From contig NZ_CP107928.1 of NCBI RefSeq assembly GCF_036030735.1, positions 9,300,001 through 9,364,000 on the forward strand: a stretch of 64,000 bases of DNA. Reading direction: 5' to 3'. Under the pieces are notes generated by a model. That model was given only the letters and a program-made list of their open reading frames with translations. It had not been told where the DNA came from and searched no databases. How positions within the stretch are numbered: position 1 is the first letter of the stretch; every line of letters begins with the position of its first letter. Of this stretch, positions 8,440-32,434 are shown one piece after another. The DNA is from Streptomyces sp. NBC_00425. GTDB lineage: Bacteria; Actinomycetota; Actinomycetes; Streptomycetales; Streptomycetaceae. Made by a program: the position numbers and the translations under genes.

Positions 8440-9378
8440 GTGCTCCGTCGTGAGCGTCTGTTGAGGACGCTGACCTTCTGTCTCCGACCCGCCTTCGCTC
8501 TGCGCGTCGTCGGCCGGTTCCAGGCGGTCATCGGGTTCGACCGTTCGATGGCGCTGGCGTCGAGCGCGTTCACCGCGCTGGTCCCGCTCACGGTCCTGGC
8601 CGGGGCCGTGGTGGGCGGCATGGTCCAGATCGACGCGGCGCAGCGGATCATCCAGCGGTACGACCTGGACGGGGCCGGCGCGGAGGCCGTGACGTACCTG
8701 TTCTCGCCGTCGCAGGAGACGAGCGCCGGCACCGGCGTGCTCGGTGTGCTCTTCCTGACGATCTCGGTGCTGAGCTTCGCGCGCGCCGCGCAGCGGCTGA
8801 TCGAGCAGACCTGGGGGCTCGCACCGCTCAGCGTGCGCAACTCACGGAACGGGCTGTGGTGGATCTTCTCCCTCGGTGGCTACGCCATCGTCAGCGGATG
8901 GATCTCCGCGGTGCTCGGCGGATGGCTGGGAGGGCTGCCGGCGGCGGTGTGCGAGGCTGCGGTGAGTGCGGTGTTCCTGGTGTGGAGCGGCCGGCTCCTG
9001 TCGGCGAAGCGGGTCCCGGCCGTCGAGCTGATCCCGTTCGGAATCACGGGGGCGGTGTTCGTCAGTGTGTATTCCTGGGGGGCGACCCTCTATGTGCCGC
9101 GTCTGTTCAACTCCTACGCCGACCGCTACGGCGTGGTCGGCGCCGTCTTCGCCATGCTCTCGGCCCTGTTCGCCGTCATGCTCGTCATCGTCGCCTCGGC
9201 GGTGCTCGGACGTGAGGTGAGCGAGGAGCTCGCGCGCATCCGCCAGGGACGGCGCCCCTCCGAGCACGAGGTCCGCCGGGAGTGGGAGGAGCTGCGGGAA
9301 CAGGCGCGTTCACGCTGGCGCAGGGTGCGCGAGGACGTGGTCCGTCGCCGTGGGAAGCGCGGCGCGACGGGACCGTGA
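8440..9378 (+). CDS. YihY/BrkB family inner membrane protein
   Basis: Multi-pass membrane protein of 312 aa in the former RNase BN/BrkB family; its transport or structural role is not settled. GTG at 8440 follows AAGGAGGA by ten bases and is preferred to the upstream ATG at 8221. Hydrophobic segments include SSAFTALVPLTVLAGAVVGG, GVLGVLFLTISVLSFARAAQ, WWIFSLGGYAIVSGWISAVL and VFAMLSALFAVMLVIVASAV. The C-terminus is charged and cytoplasmic. A second YihY protein is at 19367; the two are divergent in sequence and context. Confidence 0.85.
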   Translation: MLRRERLLRTLTFCLRPAFALRVVGRFQAVIGFDRSMALASSAFTALVPLTVLAGAVVGGMVQIDAAQRIIQRYDLDGAGAEAVTYLFSPSQETSAGTGVLGVLFLTISVLSFARAAQRLIEQTWGLAPLSVRNSRNGLWWIFSLGGYAIVSGWISAVLGGWLGGLPAAVCEAAVSAVFLVWSGRLLSAKRVPAVELIPFGITGAVFVSVYSWGATLYVPRLFNSYADRYGVVGAVFAMLSALFAVMLVIVASAVLGREVSEELARIRQGRRPSEHEVRREWEELREQARSRWRRVREDVVRRRGKRGATGP

Positions 9379-9515
9379 GCGGGGGACGCCCGGGCCGGGC
9401 GGCCGGCCCGGGCAGGCGCCGGTCACCTCGTCGCCGACGATGCAGGACACGGAGCTACGAGCGGTGCCCGGCATGACAAGCTGTGCTTTCCACTGCCCGG
9501 TCCCAGGAGGTCACC

Positions 9516-9755
9516 ATGGCTGGAGAGTCTTCACCGCCCGAGAACGCGGAACCCGTCGACGGCGAGAAGGGCGCCCCCGCGCCCGACGCCGACGGTCAGG
9601 ACGACTTGAAGCGCAAGTTCCGAGAAGCTCTGGCGCGCAAGCGCGGGATGCAGGCGGACGCCGCCGACGTCGCTGCGAACAGCGACACGTCGAAGGTTCA
9701 CGGCACGCACGGTCCGGCCGCCAGTCAGCGCTCGTTCCGTCGTAAGAGCGGCTGA
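9516..9755 (+). CDS. DUF5302 small protein
   Basis: Small acidic-then-basic actinobacterial protein of 79 aa, function unknown. The ATG at 9516 follows AGGAGG by five bases; the frame's earlier ATG has no site. The conserved core is DDLKRKFREALARKRG followed by a tail ending QRSFRRKSG. Likely soluble and largely helical or disordered. It is followed directly by a large palindrome. Confidence 0.8.
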   Translation: MAGESSPPENAEPVDGEKGAPAPDADGQDDLKRKFREALARKRGMQADAADVAANSDTSKVHGTHGPAASQRSFRRKSG

Positions 9756-9758
9756 GTT

Positions 9759-9826
9759 CCAGGGCGTGTTCCGAAGGTGACGTCGTCTGCCCGAAGCGCG
9801 GAGGGCCCTTTCGGAACACGCCCTGG
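9759..9826. repeat. 68-base palindromic element (terminator or IS-end/MITE relic)
   Basis: Perfect 17-base inverted repeats CCAGGGCGTGTTCCGAA (9759-9775) and its complement (9810-9826) flank a 34-base centre. It starts three bases after the DUF5302 stop. The arm GGGCGTGTTCCGAA resembles ends of Streptomyces IS5-like elements, so this may be a miniature, transposase-less remnant that now works as a terminator. Confidence 0.6.
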
Positions 9827-10277
9827 GCGGGCATGCGTCGTCCCCACTGCCCTGGGGGGGTGGGCGTGGGGACGACGGAGCTCGGTGGCCGGGGGGAGGG
9901 CCTTGTTCCGAGCTGTACGACACGCATTCTCGCGATCGGGAGATGTACGCGTGCGACTCCGTGTTTGTGGCGTAGATCACGTCCCTGCGGGTCTCTGATC
10001 GCGCGGAGCGGCGCCGGACGCCCGGTTCGGGGGAACGGGAGGCACGGCGACGGGGTGCCTGCCCCGCCCGGGTGTGACAGGTGCCATACCCCCAGGGCGC
10101 CGATCTTGGAATGCCCGCACCTCAGTCATCGCTGCCCTTGTGGGAGCCTCCCTTGCGCGGGGGGAGCCGGGCGATGACGGCCGGTGCGACCGGCCACGAC
10201 CGTCGTAGGACCGTGGCCCGCGTCTGCTCTGCTCCGCCTGTCCGAACCCCCGTCGTGGTGAAAGGTGTTCTCGTTCC
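9827..10277. other. intergenic region, no gene recognised
   Basis: About 450 bases between the palindrome and the MFS gene. Nothing with coding character is seen on either strand; it should include the MFS promoter. Confidence 0.5.
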
Positions 10278-27742: not shown

Positions 27743-27789
27743 TCGCGGGGCAGGGGCCGCCGTCGAGGGACGCGGCCCCTGCCCCGCGA
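27743..27789 (-). terminator. strong terminator of the 2-methylisoborneol operon
   Basis: Perfect 18-base stem (TCGCGGGGCAGGGGCCGC and its complement) with an 11-base loop. The right arm ends eight bases before the GPP methyltransferase stop codon on the minus strand, so it closes the operon. Confidence 0.85.
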
Positions 27790-27796
27790 CGCGGGC

Positions 27797-28684
27797 TCAC
27801 ACGCGGTCGGCCGCGATCATGACGTACTGGAAGGAGCCGTCCCGGTAGGACTCGATGAACGCCTCCTCGATTCCGGTGACCAGCGACGACGTGGCCCGCA
27901 GCTCCCAGTAGGGCAGTGTGTCCGCAGTGAGGTCGACGATGGTGTGCGGCACGAGCCGGTTGTCGGCCATGGCGCGCAGGTACTCGCGGCGCGAGTGGAT
28001 GTTGCACTCGAAGTGGGCGTTGATCTGGGAGACCCACTTCGACGGCTGACCGTAGCGGGGGTTCCAGCAGCCGGTGATCGTCACGTACCGGCCGCCCACC
28101 TTCAGGAAGCGCGAGTGCTCGGCGAACAGGTCATGGAGGTCGACGTACATGGTCGACTCGTTGTTCCACGACGCTGCGATGCTGCCCTTGTCGAAAGGCG
28201 TGTCGAGCATGTTGCACACGCGGGAGCGGACGTGGTCCTCGATCCGCAGTTCCCGCGCGCGCCTGTTGCCGAACTCGGCCTGGGTGGTGGACAGGGTGAC
28301 GCCCTCGACCTTGCAGCCGAAGCGGCGGTGAGCCATGACCATGGACCCGCCACGCCCGCAGCCGGCGTCGACGAGGGTGTCGCCCGGGCCGACGGCCCCG
28401 AGGTGGTCCATGAGGAACTCCGCCTGCGCCGATTCGAGCCGGTGCAGTTCCGCGATGAGCTTCTTCTCGTACTCGCTGTGCGCCGGGTCGCCGAGCGCGG
28501 CGTGGTCCACGTCCCCGATGCCGTAGTGGTGGTGGTACAGCCCGTCCACGTCACCGAGGCGGAGATTGACCGGTCGTGCCTCCGAGTTCCAGTAGCGGGC
28601 GATGTCCTCCTGGTACGCGGTCGCCGGGGCCGGGATCTTCGCGGCGGCGGTCCCGGGGGCGGCGGAGGTCGTCTCAGTCGTCAC
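27797..28684 (-). CDS. geranyl diphosphate 2-C-methyltransferase
   Basis: SAM-dependent enzyme of 295 aa that methylates C2 of geranyl diphosphate to give 2-methyl-GPP, the substrate of the cyclase encoded just upstream. Diagnostic blocks: YQEDIARYWNSEARPVNLRL, GLYHHHYGIGDVDH, VDAGCGRGGSMVMAH, ASWNNESTMYVDLHDLFAEH and GRYVTITGCWN. Orthologous to the S. coelicolor enzyme next to its 2-MIB synthase. The start is 15 bases after the cyclase stop. Confidence 0.96.
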   Translation of the reverse strand: MTTETTSAAPGTAAAKIPAPATAYQEDIARYWNSEARPVNLRLGDVDGLYHHHYGIGDVDHAALGDPAHSEYEKKLIAELHRLESAQAEFLMDHLGAVGPGDTLVDAGCGRGGSMVMAHRRFGCKVEGVTLSTTQAEFGNRRARELRIEDHVRSRVCNMLDTPFDKGSIAASWNNESTMYVDLHDLFAEHSRFLKVGGRYVTITGCWNPRYGQPSKWVSQINAHFECNIHSRREYLRAMADNRLVPHTIVDLTADTLPYWELRATSSLVTGIEEAFIESYRDGSFQYVMIAADRV

Positions 28685-28699
28685 AGAAAAGTCCGTTCT

Positions 28700-30055
28700 T
28701 TACCAGAAGTCGGGAAGGCTGTATCGGTAGGTGTTGGTGCGGTGCCAGTCGTGGTTGCCGTCGACCCAGGCGGCCACTCCCCGGAGGAAGCGCAGCACCG
28801 GGGGCAGCGGGCAGGCCTTCGCGAGGTCGGCCGCGGCGGTCTCGAAGGCGTGCTGGAGTTCGTTGTGGACCTCGACGGCCTTCAGATAGGCGTCGCGCTC
28901 GGAGAGCCGCTCGCGTTCCGCGATCACCACCGGCAGGTTCAGGTGGACGCCCGGGCTGTCGAGTTCCTTGGTGTACGAGTAGAGGTCGTTGACAATGGTG
29001 GTCGCGTTGCCCGCGAGGGCGATGACCCGCTGCATGTCCGGCCGCGCGTGCAGATCCGCGGGCAGTTCGTAGTCGCCGACGGTGTCGGTGATGGTGGGGC
29101 AGGGGCGGAAGTTGTTGAACTGGCGCATCGCCAGGTACTCCCACACCTCCGGGACGTGGCCGGTCTGGGCCCAGGCGGCTTCCGCCAGGTAGCCCATGTG
29201 CAGCCGGGCCATGTCGTGCCGGTAGCGGTCGGCCTGCGAGGGTGTGGCCGCGCGGACGAAGTAGCCCATCGCGCTGCGGTACGCCCGGCGGGGGGCGTCC
29301 GAGACGAGGGACTCCTGCCACGCCGAGGCGTACTCCGCCGTGGTGTGGAGGTGGTCGAGCGTCGTGTGCGCGAGGAGGAGACGCCCGCCGAGACCGACGG
29401 GTGACCCCCCGTGGTCCTCGCAGTAGCAGTCGTCCACCGCGTTCTCGGCCACCATGAGCCGCGTGGCGAGCATCAGGTGGTCGACCGTCGGAGCGTCGGG
29501 GTGGCAGGCCACCATGTAGCGGCCGACGGAGAAGCCGTCGAACTGTCCCTCCCATTCCTCGGGATAGAGCTGCACCTCGTCCTCGGCCCAGTGCTTGATC
29601 CGGCGGCTGACCTCCTCGACGCGCACGGGATCGGGCTCCGGGACGGAATGGTGGTAGAGCCCGGGGACGGCTCGGCCCGCGGCGGGCGGAGCGGGTGTCG
29701 CGGACACCGGTTGCGCAGGCGGGGGTTCGCACCTGGCGGACAGTGCGAGGGAGGACGTGCCCAGTCCGGTGGGGCCGCGCAGGATTCCTTGGAAGGCGAT
29801 CCCCTGGAGGGCGACCTCCTGGAGGGCGGAACCGGCCGCGGTCGTGTCCGGCGTGTGTCGTGCGGTGGAGGGGGGCGCCGGGGGCGGTGGCGGGTCGGGG
29901 GCCGTGACCGGCGGATGCAGTGCTGCCAGAAAGCCGGAGGCGGCCCGCGTGGCCGCAAGGTCGGGGACCACCGGCGCGGGGGCGTCGGGCACGGTCGTGG
30001 GCGGGCTCGGTCGCCGCTCGGGCGGGGGTGATCCGAGGGGCCCGGAGTCGGGCAT
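28700..30055 (-). CDS. 2-methylisoborneol synthase (class I terpene cyclase) with disordered N-terminal region
   Basis: Cyclises 2-methyl-GPP to 2-methylisoborneol. The start at 30055 (AAGGAG six bases upstream) gives 451 aa; an ATG at 30109 is in frame. Residues 1 to about 115 are Pro/Ala-rich and disordered, but hold ordered-looking hydrophobic patches (LAATRAASGFLAALHPP and SALQEVALQGIAFQGILRG). The catalytic domain follows, with the metal motif VDDCYCEDH and the second metal motif NDLYSYTKE. The N-terminal extension is the expected encapsulin-targeting segment. The gene lies between the shell gene and the methyltransferase. Confidence 0.96.
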   Translation of the reverse strand: MPDSGPLGSPPPERRPSPPTTVPDAPAPVVPDLAATRAASGFLAALHPPVTAPDPPPPPAPPSTARHTPDTTAAGSALQEVALQGIAFQGILRGPTGLGTSSLALSARCEPPPAQPVSATPAPPAAGRAVPGLYHHSVPEPDPVRVEEVSRRIKHWAEDEVQLYPEEWEGQFDGFSVGRYMVACHPDAPTVDHLMLATRLMVAENAVDDCYCEDHGGSPVGLGGRLLLAHTTLDHLHTTAEYASAWQESLVSDAPRRAYRSAMGYFVRAATPSQADRYRHDMARLHMGYLAEAAWAQTGHVPEVWEYLAMRQFNNFRPCPTITDTVGDYELPADLHARPDMQRVIALAGNATTIVNDLYSYTKELDSPGVHLNLPVVIAERERLSERDAYLKAVEVHNELQHAFETAAADLAKACPLPPVLRFLRGVAAWVDGNHDWHRTNTYRYSLPDFW

Positions 30056-30143
30056 CGTCGGCTCCTTGCTGCGGTGGGGTGGGCGGTCCGTCGTGCTCGG
30101 ACGTGTCACACGTGGACCTGCGGCGGGCCAGGGCGTCAGGACG

Positions 30144-31559
30144 TCAGCGCGGCCTGGGGGCGATCTGCACGTTCTCCATCACCCCGAGGGCGTCGGGCAG
30201 GAGCACCGCGGCGGAGTAGTAGGTACTGACGAGGTACGAGATGATCGCCTGCTCGTTGATGCCCATGAACCGCACGGAGAGCCCCGGTTCGTACTCGTCC
30301 AGCAGCCCTGTCTGCCGCAGACCGATGACGCCCTGGTTCTGCTCGCCGGTGCGCATCGCGATGATGGTGCTGGTCTGCTCCTTGCTGACCGGGATCTTGT
30401 TGCAGGGCAGGATGGGGACTCCGCGCCAGGCGGGGACGGATTGCCCGCCGAGGTCGACGTGGTCGGGGTAGAGACCGCAGGCGTTGAAGCCACGTCCGAT
30501 GGCGGCGATCGTCCTGGGATGGGCGAGGAACAGTTTGGTGCCGCGCCGGCGGCAGAGCAGATCGTCCATGTCGTCAGGGGTCGGCGGCCCGGAGCGGGGT
30601 TGGATGCGCTGCTTGAAGTCGACGTTGTGCAGCAGCCCGAACTCGCGGTTGTTGATCAGCTCGTGTTCCTGACGTTCCCGCAACGCCTCGATGGTGAGCC
30701 GCAGTTGCTCCTCACTCTGGTTCATCGGACCGTTGTAGAGGTCGGCTACCCGGGTGTGGACCCGCAGCACGGTCTGCGCGACGGAGAGCTCGTACTCGCG
30801 AGGCTTCGGCTCGTAGTCGACGAAGGTGCCAGGCAGTTCGGCCTCGCCGACGTGACCGGCCGACAGGGCGATCTCCGCCTCGCCGTGTTTGTTCTGCCGC
30901 TGCCGCGCGCGGGAGCTGAACCGGTCGACGTGGGCCCGTAGGTGGGGTGCGCGGTTCTGGACGGCGGTGAAGTCGGCGTGCGAGAGGGTGAGGAGGGTGC
31001 CGGAGGTCTGGGCGGTGACCGTGCAGTCGTGACGGGCGTCGGAGTCCGACAGGGCGTTCTCGCCGAAGTGGTCGCCGTCCGCGAGCACCGCGAGGGAGTT
31101 CTCTCCTCCGTACGGGCCCTCGGAGGTCTGGATGAGCCGGCCGTGGGCGATCAGGTGGATCCGGTCCGCGGGGTCGCCGCGCTCGACGAGGACCTCGCCC
31201 GCCGTGAAATCGCGTTGCGTGCAGCGGTCGGCGAGGACGGTGAGAACGTCCGCGTCCTCGAATCCGCGCAGAAGGGCCAGTTCGCCGAGCTCCCGGGGGA
31301 TCACCCGGACCGTGGCGCCCTCCTGGACGAACTCGATGCGCCCGTCGCCGAGGGTGTGGCGCAACCGCCGGTTGACCCGGTAGGCGCCGCCTTTGGCCTC
31401 GACCCAGGGCAGCATCCGCAGCAGCCAGCGGGAGGTGATCTCCTGCATCTGCGGGGCGGACTTGGTGGTGGTGGCGAGGTTGCGGGCGGCGGCGGTACTC
31501 AGGGACTGCTGCGCCGCGGCGGGTGTGGTGTGGGTTTCCGGGACGCTGTCGACGGACAT
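30144..31559 (-). CDS. Family 2B encapsulin shell protein with cyclic-nucleotide-binding-like insertion
   Basis: Shell protein of 471 aa that should assemble into an icosahedral nanocompartment around the terpene cyclase. The N-arm is followed by [21 protein letters not shown] Crp-like cNMP-binding domain lies at about 95-215 ([37 protein letters not shown]). The HK97-type capsid fold follows ([58 protein letters not shown]). The whole matches Family 2B (EshB-type) shells and is often annotated as a Crp regulator. The start at 31559 has AAGGAGA nine bases upstream. First gene of the operon. Confidence 0.93.
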
Positions 31560-31692
31560 CGGGGACTTTCTCCTTGCACGGCAGGCCGTCCGGCGCACAC
31601 GCGTGCGTCGGCCGGGAGACAGGGAGGGTGGGCAACGAGCGGGCAGGATCACGGGTATCCGTCCACCTGCAGAAAGCTAGCCGCTGAACCGG

Positions 31693-31752
31693 CCGCATTC
31701 AGAGGTGAGACGGGATGCTTACCTCGAAGCGGTGACAATCAGTTGAATGCGG
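31693..31752. promoter_or_regulatory. distant inverted repeat upstream of the encapsulin operon
   Basis: CCGCATTCA (31693-31701) and its exact complement TGAATGCGG (31744-31752) are 51 bases apart start to start, close to five helical turns. The AT-richer 42 bases between them include TGACAAT, which reads as a TTGTCA -35-like box on the minus strand. A looped or paired operator of the 2-MIB operon is plausible. Confidence 0.45.
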
Positions 31753-31782
31753 TTTATCGGCCCGCAACGTGTCATCGCCTCT

Positions 31783-31822
31783 CCGGGCAGCCGGGCAGCC
31801 GGGCAGCCGGGCAGCCGGGCAG
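31783..31822. repeat. five tandem copies of CCGGGCAG
   Basis: Five exact head-to-tail copies of an 8-base unit, with a sixth partial copy (CCGG) following. A simple repeat of this kind is prone to copy-number change. It lies about 225 bases upstream of the encapsulin start and overlaps no gene. Confidence 0.85.
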
Positions 31823-32434
31823 CCGGCGTGTAAGACCGTGTGCGGCGCGAGTTCGCCCGAAGGACGCCGGGCAGGCTGAGGCCGATCCCTTCGAGCGTGG
31901 GAACCCGTGGACGTCACGCACCGAGGGAACGTCCTGCGGTGAAGGGGCGTACTCATGTCTCATCGGCGGGGCGGGGCGGGGTGGTGCGGCGGCGGCCATC
32001 GGCCTCACGAAGCCCTGTCCGCCCGGCACGCGGAAGGTCGTCACTGCCGGAGGCGTTGACTCAACCTCCCGCCGCAGCGATGCGCGGTCACCGAAGGTCT
32101 CCTGGACGAGCAGGTCGGCCTGCCGACCCAACGGTCTGCTTCACGTCCCAGGGGCGCGGCGCGCGGAGGCCGCGGTCGTCGCCGGGGTGAGCACCGAGCG
32201 GTACCGGCGGCCGGAGAAGGGGCACATCGCCGACGCGTCCGGCCAGGCTGCGCCCACCGACGGGGCTCGACTCCGGGTTGCGCACGAGCGGAGAAGGAAC
32301 AGGCGGAACGGCCCGGCACCCGTGGTGCGAGGGCGGCGGACGCCCGGCCCGGCAGCGGCGGTCCCGCGGGCGGAGTCGCTCGCTGGTGCAACCGCCCGTC
32401 ACGGGCGTCCGAGGCGCGTCGCGGTCGCGGAACC
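31823..32434. other. gene-poor stretch with a decayed regulator
   Basis: Apart from the XRE remnant at 32120-32300, nothing with coding character is seen in these 600 bases between the tandem repeat and the VOC gene. Confidence 0.5.
32120..32300 (+). pseudogene. XRE/MmyB-type HTH regulator remnant
   Basis: A frame reads LLHVPGARRAEAAVVAGVS and then TERYRRPEKGHIADASGQA, which closely matches the HTH core of the common actinobacterial pattern (VPGLRREEAAVLAGVS, YYRRLEKGHIADAS). Just upstream the preceding motif QVGLPT is in another frame, and the downstream C-terminal domain is unrecognisable. Key positions are altered (E to A, L to P). The gene is frameshifted and truncated. Confidence 0.6.

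Follow-up and report, generated by a model that had tools for sequence, protein, structure and literature searches.

A Streptomyces 2-methylisoborneol operon with a Family 2B encapsulin gene, and relatives that keep the cyclase tag and upstream block without the shell

Known encapsulin-associated 2-methylisoborneol operons and the present locus

An encapsulated synthase for 2-methylisoborneol (2-MIB) has been predicted in print (PMC8346489), and here we describe a three-gene locus of this kind from Streptomyces sp. NBC_00425. The locus lies in a stretch of 64,000 nucleotides, hereafter called the window, which covers 9.30-9.36 Mb within a 9.81-Mb single-contig genome. An earlier note on this DNA called the locus an encapsulated 2-MIB factory and remarked that compartmentalised 2-MIB synthesis had been reported in Streptomyces, which holds at least at the level of that published prediction. 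In 2021 the same paper put forward GPTGLGT as a possible targeting sequence and described 100-120 often disordered residues (PMC8346489). The encapsulin-2-MIB system, its cargo assignment and the candidate tag GPTGLGT are already published, and the window holds a further ortholog.

The best described counterparts differ from the locus only in part. The shell of S. griseus, EshA or Sg Enc (PDB 9BHU, 9BHV and 9BI0), matches the window's shell over residues 1-471, the differences seen being at the level of sequence, and we take its cargo to be 2-MIB synthase. A preprint on S. griseus is said to show the encapsulated 2-MIB synthase. Both enzymes of the locus match solved structures over their full length, the cyclase PDB 3V1X (E 1.5e-250) and the methyltransferase PDB 3VC1 (E 4.6e-186), presumably the S. 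coelicolor enzymes; the window cyclase differs from 3V1X by a 10-residue insertion located just before the tag. In S. venezuelae, the eshA-mibA-mibB genes have the gene order and content seen in the window and are described as an operon that is bound and directly activated by BldC (PMC6428758). The two-component Family 2B encapsulin of S. lydicus (PDB 9BIX and 9BJE; PMC12407261) belongs to the same family as the window's shell (E 8.2e-195 and 1.6e-176), but its locus is reported with two shell genes where the window has one.

We read the locus as orthologous to the eshA-mibA-mibB operon already described, with the cyclase captured inside the Family 2B shell, and give this reading a probability of about 0.93. 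What is new is that the tag and a conserved upstream block outlive the shell gene in relatives. The features are collected in Table 1. The earlier note had placed three minus-strand genes in the order shell, cyclase, methyltransferase, and its coordinates agree with ours almost to the base. Only 88 nucleotides separate the shell and cyclase genes and 15 nucleotides the cyclase and methyltransferase genes.

Table 1. Features of the operon, with positions counted from the first letter of the window
Feature	Position	Strand	Description	Basis
Family 2B encapsulin shell protein, EshA/Sg Enc type	30144-31559	minus	ATG start, TGA stop, 471 amino acids	NF041163, PF19307, PF00027, PDB 9bhu
2-Methylisoborneol synthase, cargo cyclase	28700-30055	minus	ATG start, TAA stop, 451 amino acids	PDB 3v1x, NF041167
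Candidate cargo-loading tag	29732-29830	minus	cyclase residues 76-108, SALQEVALQGIAFQGILRGPTGLGTSSLALSAR	conserved in homologues; published candidate motif GPTGLGT
Geranyl diphosphate 2-C-methyltransferase	27797-28684	minus	GTG start, TGA stop, 295 amino acids	PDB 3vc1, NF041943
Hairpin 3' of the operon	27743-27789	minus	perfect 18-bp inverted repeat; probable terminator, no T-run	
Conserved upstream block	31640-31790	minus	probable promoter/operator region	alignment of 62 upstream regions

The shell gene

The product of the first gene resembles a Crp regulator at first sight, and the proposal of the earlier note that it is instead a Family 2B encapsulin is borne out by homology. The protein scores 759 bits against NCBIfam model NF041163 (encap_f2b; cut-off 400), and aligns end to end, over residues 1-471 (E 8.5e-243), with PDB 9bhu, the solved S. 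griseus shell, which is its closest solved structure and is titled as a Family 2B encapsulin shell. A match to the Pfam SrpI-like family PF19307 at residues 217-467 (457 bits, cut-off 22.8) is preceded by a match to the cNMP_binding family PF00027 at residues 116-200 (58 bits). By homology, then, the first gene is a Family 2B encapsulin, in which an HK97-type domain carries an inserted domain resembling cyclic-nucleotide-binding (CNB) domains. The PDB title of the S. griseus relative calls it a shell, and by analogy the window's protein would assemble into an icosahedral compartment.

Structure prediction, to which the earlier note had pointed as a check on the fold, is informative for only one part of the protein. 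The AlphaFold model is weak (mean predicted local distance difference test score 52.9), with block confidences of 69-95 over residues 71-220; the CNB-fold domain is predicted confidently, and the HK97 region at too low a confidence for its fold to be read from the model alone. A Foldseek search with the model places 9bhu first, which is poor evidence from a model of such low confidence.

Older annotations would make this gene product a Crp-family transcription regulator acting on the operon, which is scarcely credible. The cNMP_binding match is in keeping with this idea, two related shell structures are deposited under the molecule name 'Crp/Fnr family transcriptional regulator', and the S. 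erythraea homologue has been called a CAP-family factor (PMC3827479). However, the fit of the C-terminal block to the SrpI-like shell family and the nature of the nearest solved structure both speak for a shell, and the NCBIfam Crp model PRK11753 yields only 29 bits (cut-off 266). No helix-turn-helix family appears among the protein's Pfam matches up to E 1.

Cyclic nucleotide binders carry a phosphate-binding Glu and Arg, with a small residue following the Arg. The CNB-fold domain of the window's shell keeps the Glu and the Arg, and the residue after the Arg is His. Among the 63 intact shells of the operon described below, Glu is present in 49 and Arg in 43, and the residue after the Arg position is Trp in 36, His in 23 and Tyr in 4, in a register that was set by aligning a Crp-like protein from the genome that holds the window, with a one-residue gap at this place. 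The insertion domain of a Family 2B shell is stated to bind no cyclic nucleotide (PMC12407261, citing bioRxiv 590730). Old 'Crp regulator' names for such genes are likely misleading.

The Rfam family Sernc350 (RF02735) matches the plus strand opposite the shell gene at 31021-31516, with 113.7 bits (gathering threshold 50). This RNA was predicted computationally in S. erythraea, antisense to the shell-type gene SACE_3976, and was backed by RNA-seq and quantitative reverse-transcription PCR (qRT-PCR) (PMC3827479). Control of the shell gene by a cis-antisense RNA of this family is nevertheless very unlikely. Four-fold sites inside the match (84 of 216, in 63 sequences) are no more conserved than those outside (entropy 0.84 versus 0.88, p 0.69), and the window alignment flags many of the model's base pairs as non-standard. 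Moreover, the libraries for the original RNA-seq were prepared from double-stranded cDNA using a kit for genomic libraries, and the text of that source contains neither 'strand-specific' nor 'directional' and names no strand-specific priming in its qRT-PCR passage (PMC3827479). These data therefore cannot separate an antisense RNA from mRNA. We rejected the match as functional evidence; the four-fold sites reveal no constraint beyond the coding sequence, and the match is probably coding conservation read backwards. Unstranded RNA data may underlie the Rfam family as a whole, and the family is likely misleading for these genes.

The two enzymes and the candidate tag

The structure matched by the cyclase is titled '2-methylisoborneol synthase', and the protein also scores 488 bits against the encapsulin-cargo model NF041167 (f2_encap_cargo2; cut-off 400). 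In an alignment of the window's protein with 19 chosen homologues, the metal-binding motifs DDCYCE (D208, D209, E213) and NDLYSYTKE (N356, D357, S360, E364) are invariant. On this homology the second gene is a 2-MIB synthase. A homologue search with the cyclase yielded 1281 proteins at E <= 0.001 among 7988 candidates scored, and many of the 120 homologues listed already bear the name 'family 2 encapsulin nanocompartment cargo protein terpene cyclase'.

About 130 residues precede the catalytic domain. The earlier note had described roughly 115 disordered residues with two hydrophobic patches suited for docking in a shell. The disordered stretch is confirmed insofar as the AlphaFold model, weak overall (mean 51.6), has a confidence below 50 over residues 1-138. 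Both patches are likewise present, as low-confidence helices at residues 38-45 and 82-91, but only the second belongs to the family-wide tag. The first (FLAALHPP, pattern FLxxLHPP) occurs in 68 of the 120 listed homologues, in 20 of 81 sequences from the loci described below, and in none of the 12 cyclases whose loci lack an intact shell. A motif of the GPxGxGT type is found in 117 of the 120 listed homologues, a set that includes some fragments: 103 have one copy, 14 have two and 3 have none. In the 20-sequence alignment G94, P95, G97, G99 and T100 are the sole invariant positions between Met1 and G127. Within the candidate tag of the window's cyclase, a 15-bp tandem repeat (29790-29828, 2.6 copies) duplicates the hydrophobic xLQxI half (ALQEV-ALQGI-AFQGI) and accounts for the insertion that distinguishes the protein from 3v1x. 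Thus, a cargo-type cyclase with a disordered, putative loading region (the tag at residues 76-108) shares an operon with the shell.

In six shell-bearing loci (L032, L036, L037, L039, L040 and L041; L and G numbers are our labels for loci and genomes) the cyclase tail holds two copies of the tag, which could raise the strength of docking.

The methyltransferase scores 489 bits against the equivalog-level NCBIfam model NF041943 (GPPMT; cut-off 400), and together with the full-length structural match this identifies the third gene, by homology, as a geranyl diphosphate C-methyltransferase. Between the two enzymes, only the cyclase has a match to an encapsulin-cargo model and a tag. The 'factory' of the earlier note is accordingly correct in the identities of shell, cargo cyclase and methyltransferase and overstated in enclosing an enzyme that has neither cargo-model match nor tag.

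The operon is followed by a hairpin that the earlier note had called an 18-base-stem terminator. The perfect 18-bp stem is present and folds unusually well (z-score -7.2, with none of 200 shuffles equally good), but it was not among the calls of a consensus terminator scan. Because of this, and because the hairpin lacks a run of T nucleotides, its role as the operon terminator is given here as probable.

Loss of the shell gene from related operons

A scan for related loci, with one genome per species, returned 427 relatives, of which 80 were read. By best hit, 66 of the 80 carry shell, cyclase and methyltransferase in that order on one strand, 13 carry cyclase and methyltransferase only, and one carries the cyclase only. 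Four loci (L030, L035, L077 and L091) end at a contig edge, leaving 76 that can be assessed. At the end of another contig, L077's genome and L091's each carry a shell that shares 77-80% identity with that of the window; the genome of L030 has a full-length shell at a contig start, and in that of L035 a single full-length shell was found, with 63% identity. An intact shell of 450-475 amino acids is present in 63 of the 76 assessable loci, and the shell of L031 is frameshifted. The other 12 loci lack an intact shell (L042, L045, L046, L047, L048, L052, L054, L062, L071, L074, L075 and L078). Among the shell-less species are S. iranensis, S. violens and S. eurocidicus. Remnants stand at the expected place in L042, L046, L047, L048 and L052 (E 4e-6 or better), and doubtful ones in L062 (E 0.004) and L074 (E 0.07).

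The shell-less operons keep the tag. The core GP[ST]G[LP]GT is present in all 12 shell-less cyclases versus 54 of 64 shell-bearing ones, the window included. Among the shell-less cyclases, pairwise identity is 81% in the 16-residue tag region, 16% in the 16 residues to its left and 41% in the right flank; the corresponding values for 63 shell-bearing sequences are 70%, 21% and 29%. The left flanks remain at 15-21% pairwise identity across comparisons.

The operons also keep the block of about 150 nucleotides upstream of the shell gene, which is probably the operon's conserved control region, as judged from its conservation. A profile trained on the window together with 61 shell-bearing loci matches the window once, at 31783-31641, and finds 62 of the 63 shell-bearing loci, mostly training sequences, as well as the frameshifted L031. 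Outside the training set, it finds 11 of the 12 shell-less loci, at E <= 1e-18 in ten and 8e-5 in L046, with no match in L045. A sigma-70 scan of the region upstream of the operon found nothing; WhiG, BldD and extracytoplasmic sigma factors were also considered as candidate readers of the block. Adjoining the block on its upstream side is a perfect 8-bp tandem repeat, CCGGGCAG (5.5 copies, 31783-31826), whose copy number could vary between strains.

In 11 shell-less loci the distance from block to cyclase is about 10 to 914 nucleotides, versus 1,585 nucleotides in the window with its intact shell. Since block and tag are kept while the cyclase stands closer to the block, the shell gene was deleted or decayed from an otherwise unmoved operon. 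On a tree of the catalytic domain, shell presence requires at least seven changes by parsimony, or six when the 11 searchable shell-less genomes are used; the tree was made by a quick method, with 11 of 78 inner branches well supported, and both counts are soft because many forks are weak. Where two shell-less loci are sisters, they differ by 1-4 nonsynonymous codons of 16 inside the tag, which are small numbers. In several relatives, then, 2-MIB operons have lost their dedicated shell, several times over, yet kept the tag and the upstream block. Literature searches, whose coverage excluded subscription journals and preprints, turned up no earlier report of such shell loss recognisable from titles and the starts of abstracts.

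Other shells and tagged proteins in the same genomes

A search of 11 of the 12 shell-less genomes, all but that of L046, found 2-5 other near-full-length Family 2B shells in each (33 in total). These are 43-66% identical to the window's shell, and one, in the genome of L075, has an internal stop. In three of the 11 genomes a second shell stands beside a cyclase of the 2-MIB synthase (2-MIBS) family: twice in S. eurocidicus (L148; L159 with L133), once in the strain of L045 (L150, its cyclase at 389 bits being just below the cut-off) and once in S. natalensis (L161 with L138). A C-methyltransferase (528-532 bits) then follows in L148, L150 and L159, and the second operons L148, L150 and L159 with L133 are possibly for another methylated monoterpene.

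DNA patterns for the tag word occur at 28 places in the 11 genomes versus 23 for a control pattern, so bare pattern places mean little before translation. Nine further open reading frames (ORFs) with tags resembling GPTGLGTSAAR were found in six of the 11 genomes, with f2_encap_cargo2 or cargo3 as their best models; three score above the cut-off, and the others are truncated at the edge of the 3-kb locus or, in L116, fall narrowly below the cut-off.

These findings bear on a different account of the tail, in which it is not, or not only, a docking tag for the operon's own shell, and instead directs the cyclase to other Family 2B shells of the cell or acts in some separate way, for instance in oligomer contacts. 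We consider this unlikely, at roughly one chance in four. In its favour are the persistence of the tag in all 12 shell-less relatives, the additional shells, the further tagged cargo-type cyclases and the second shells adjoining 2-MIBS-family cyclases; the GPTGLGT-type motif is also reported from both cargo cyclase types (PMC8346489). Against it, the losses may be recent, few codons are informative in the sister pairs, and a search for the exact motif found no second tagged cyclase in five of the 11 genomes. From the shells that stand with 2-MIBS-family cyclases, loading into another shell appears possible in some shell-less cells. As a tentative and rather doubtful extension, repeated shell loss with promoter and tag both kept might reflect other Family 2B shells of the cell reading the same tag, in mixed or shared compartments, which would make the dedicated shell replaceable and let encapsulins exchange cargo.

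Two shells in tandem, defined as on the same strand less than 250 bp apart and judged by eye, occur in 9 of the 11 shell-less genomes versus 1 of 65 shell-bearing ones (64 fetched and the window; Fisher p 4e-9). In two more shell-bearing genomes, G068 and G070, a pair of shells lies on opposite strands no more than 10 kb apart, and the genome of L051, with two partial shells on separate contigs, was scored as having no tandem. We make no claim that shell loss is linked to tandem loci, because the comparison is confounded by descent, with one independent pair on supported branches. The one tandem locus checked, L143, adjoins a xylulokinase gene.

The window's genome has only one other Family 2B shell above the cut-off, 5.7 Mb away (L009, G000:C1:3632000-3650000, 8551-9957). 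It is followed by a gene that fits NCBI's cargo polyprenyl transferase model at 475 bits (L009, 7442-8833; cut-off 450), and operons of this type are known. The DNA pattern of the 7-residue motif occurs at three places in this genome versus one for the reversed control pattern: in the cyclase, in a protease-like ORF (GPTGLGTPEG) and as GPWGLGT (L094). The second of these was rejected as a tagged cargo, being a protease by eye, with no NCBIfam match. The word GPTGLGT also occurs in ORFs that look protease-like by eye in L115, L125, L137, L140, L141 and L142, for example GYDGPTGLGTPNG, and that of L115 has no NCBIfam match. Such ORFs are a trap for motif searches aimed at encapsulin cargo.

Matches to the 2-MIBS family were found in 7 of 396 genomes of the phylum, the window's own included. 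The other six each have a Family 2B shell, so none of them is an instance of a 2-MIBS-family cyclase in a cell free of such shells.

Proposed role of the shell

On the reading favoured here, that of a published operon with its cyclase captured in the shell, the methyltransferase would methylate geranyl diphosphate and the cyclase would convert 2-methylgeranyl diphosphate to 2-MIB. The product of the first gene would build the icosahedral Family 2B shell, which would capture the cyclase during assembly through the disordered N-terminal tail, chiefly the tag xLQxILRGPTGLGT, and the untagged methyltransferase would most likely remain outside. One promoter block probably serves all three genes, which would be co-expressed. 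By analogy with the described systems, the cyclase is expected to be encapsulated in the window's organism as well.

Several observations weigh against this reading. Because the tags outlast the dedicated shell, their conservation alone is no proof of docking to it. The GPTGLGT tag is also not universal among shell-adjacent 2-MIBS-family cyclases: in L169 (genome G207), a cyclase with a tail of about 35-40 residues stands directly beside a Family 2B shell and has no such tag. In addition, 10 of the 64 shell-bearing sequences deviate from the strict core GP[TS]G[LP]GT, seven of them by one residue, and for one of the ten, L027, the predicted start is too far downstream to cover the tag. Finally, the structure models of shell and cyclase are both of low confidence.

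The chemistry looks independent of the dedicated shell. Formation of 2-MIB is stated not to depend on EshA (PMC6428758), and 2-MIB has been made in Escherichia coli from the methyltransferase and cyclase genes alone (PMC10580876). In that work, E. coli released nearly all of its 2-MIB, whereas a cyanobacterium held more inside than outside (PMC10580876). Because two enzymes suffice, EshA is not required and shells have been lost in nature, we regard the shell as modifying the chemistry without being required for it; it looks dispensable and probably tunes retention, side products or timing.

The window itself adds one more clean example of the published nanocompartment, and its genome encodes a single other Family 2B shell. 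The operons that lack the shell and retain tag and promoter are a natural experiment on the benefit of encapsulating a terpene cyclase, and they also bear on whether the encapsulins of one cell share cargo.

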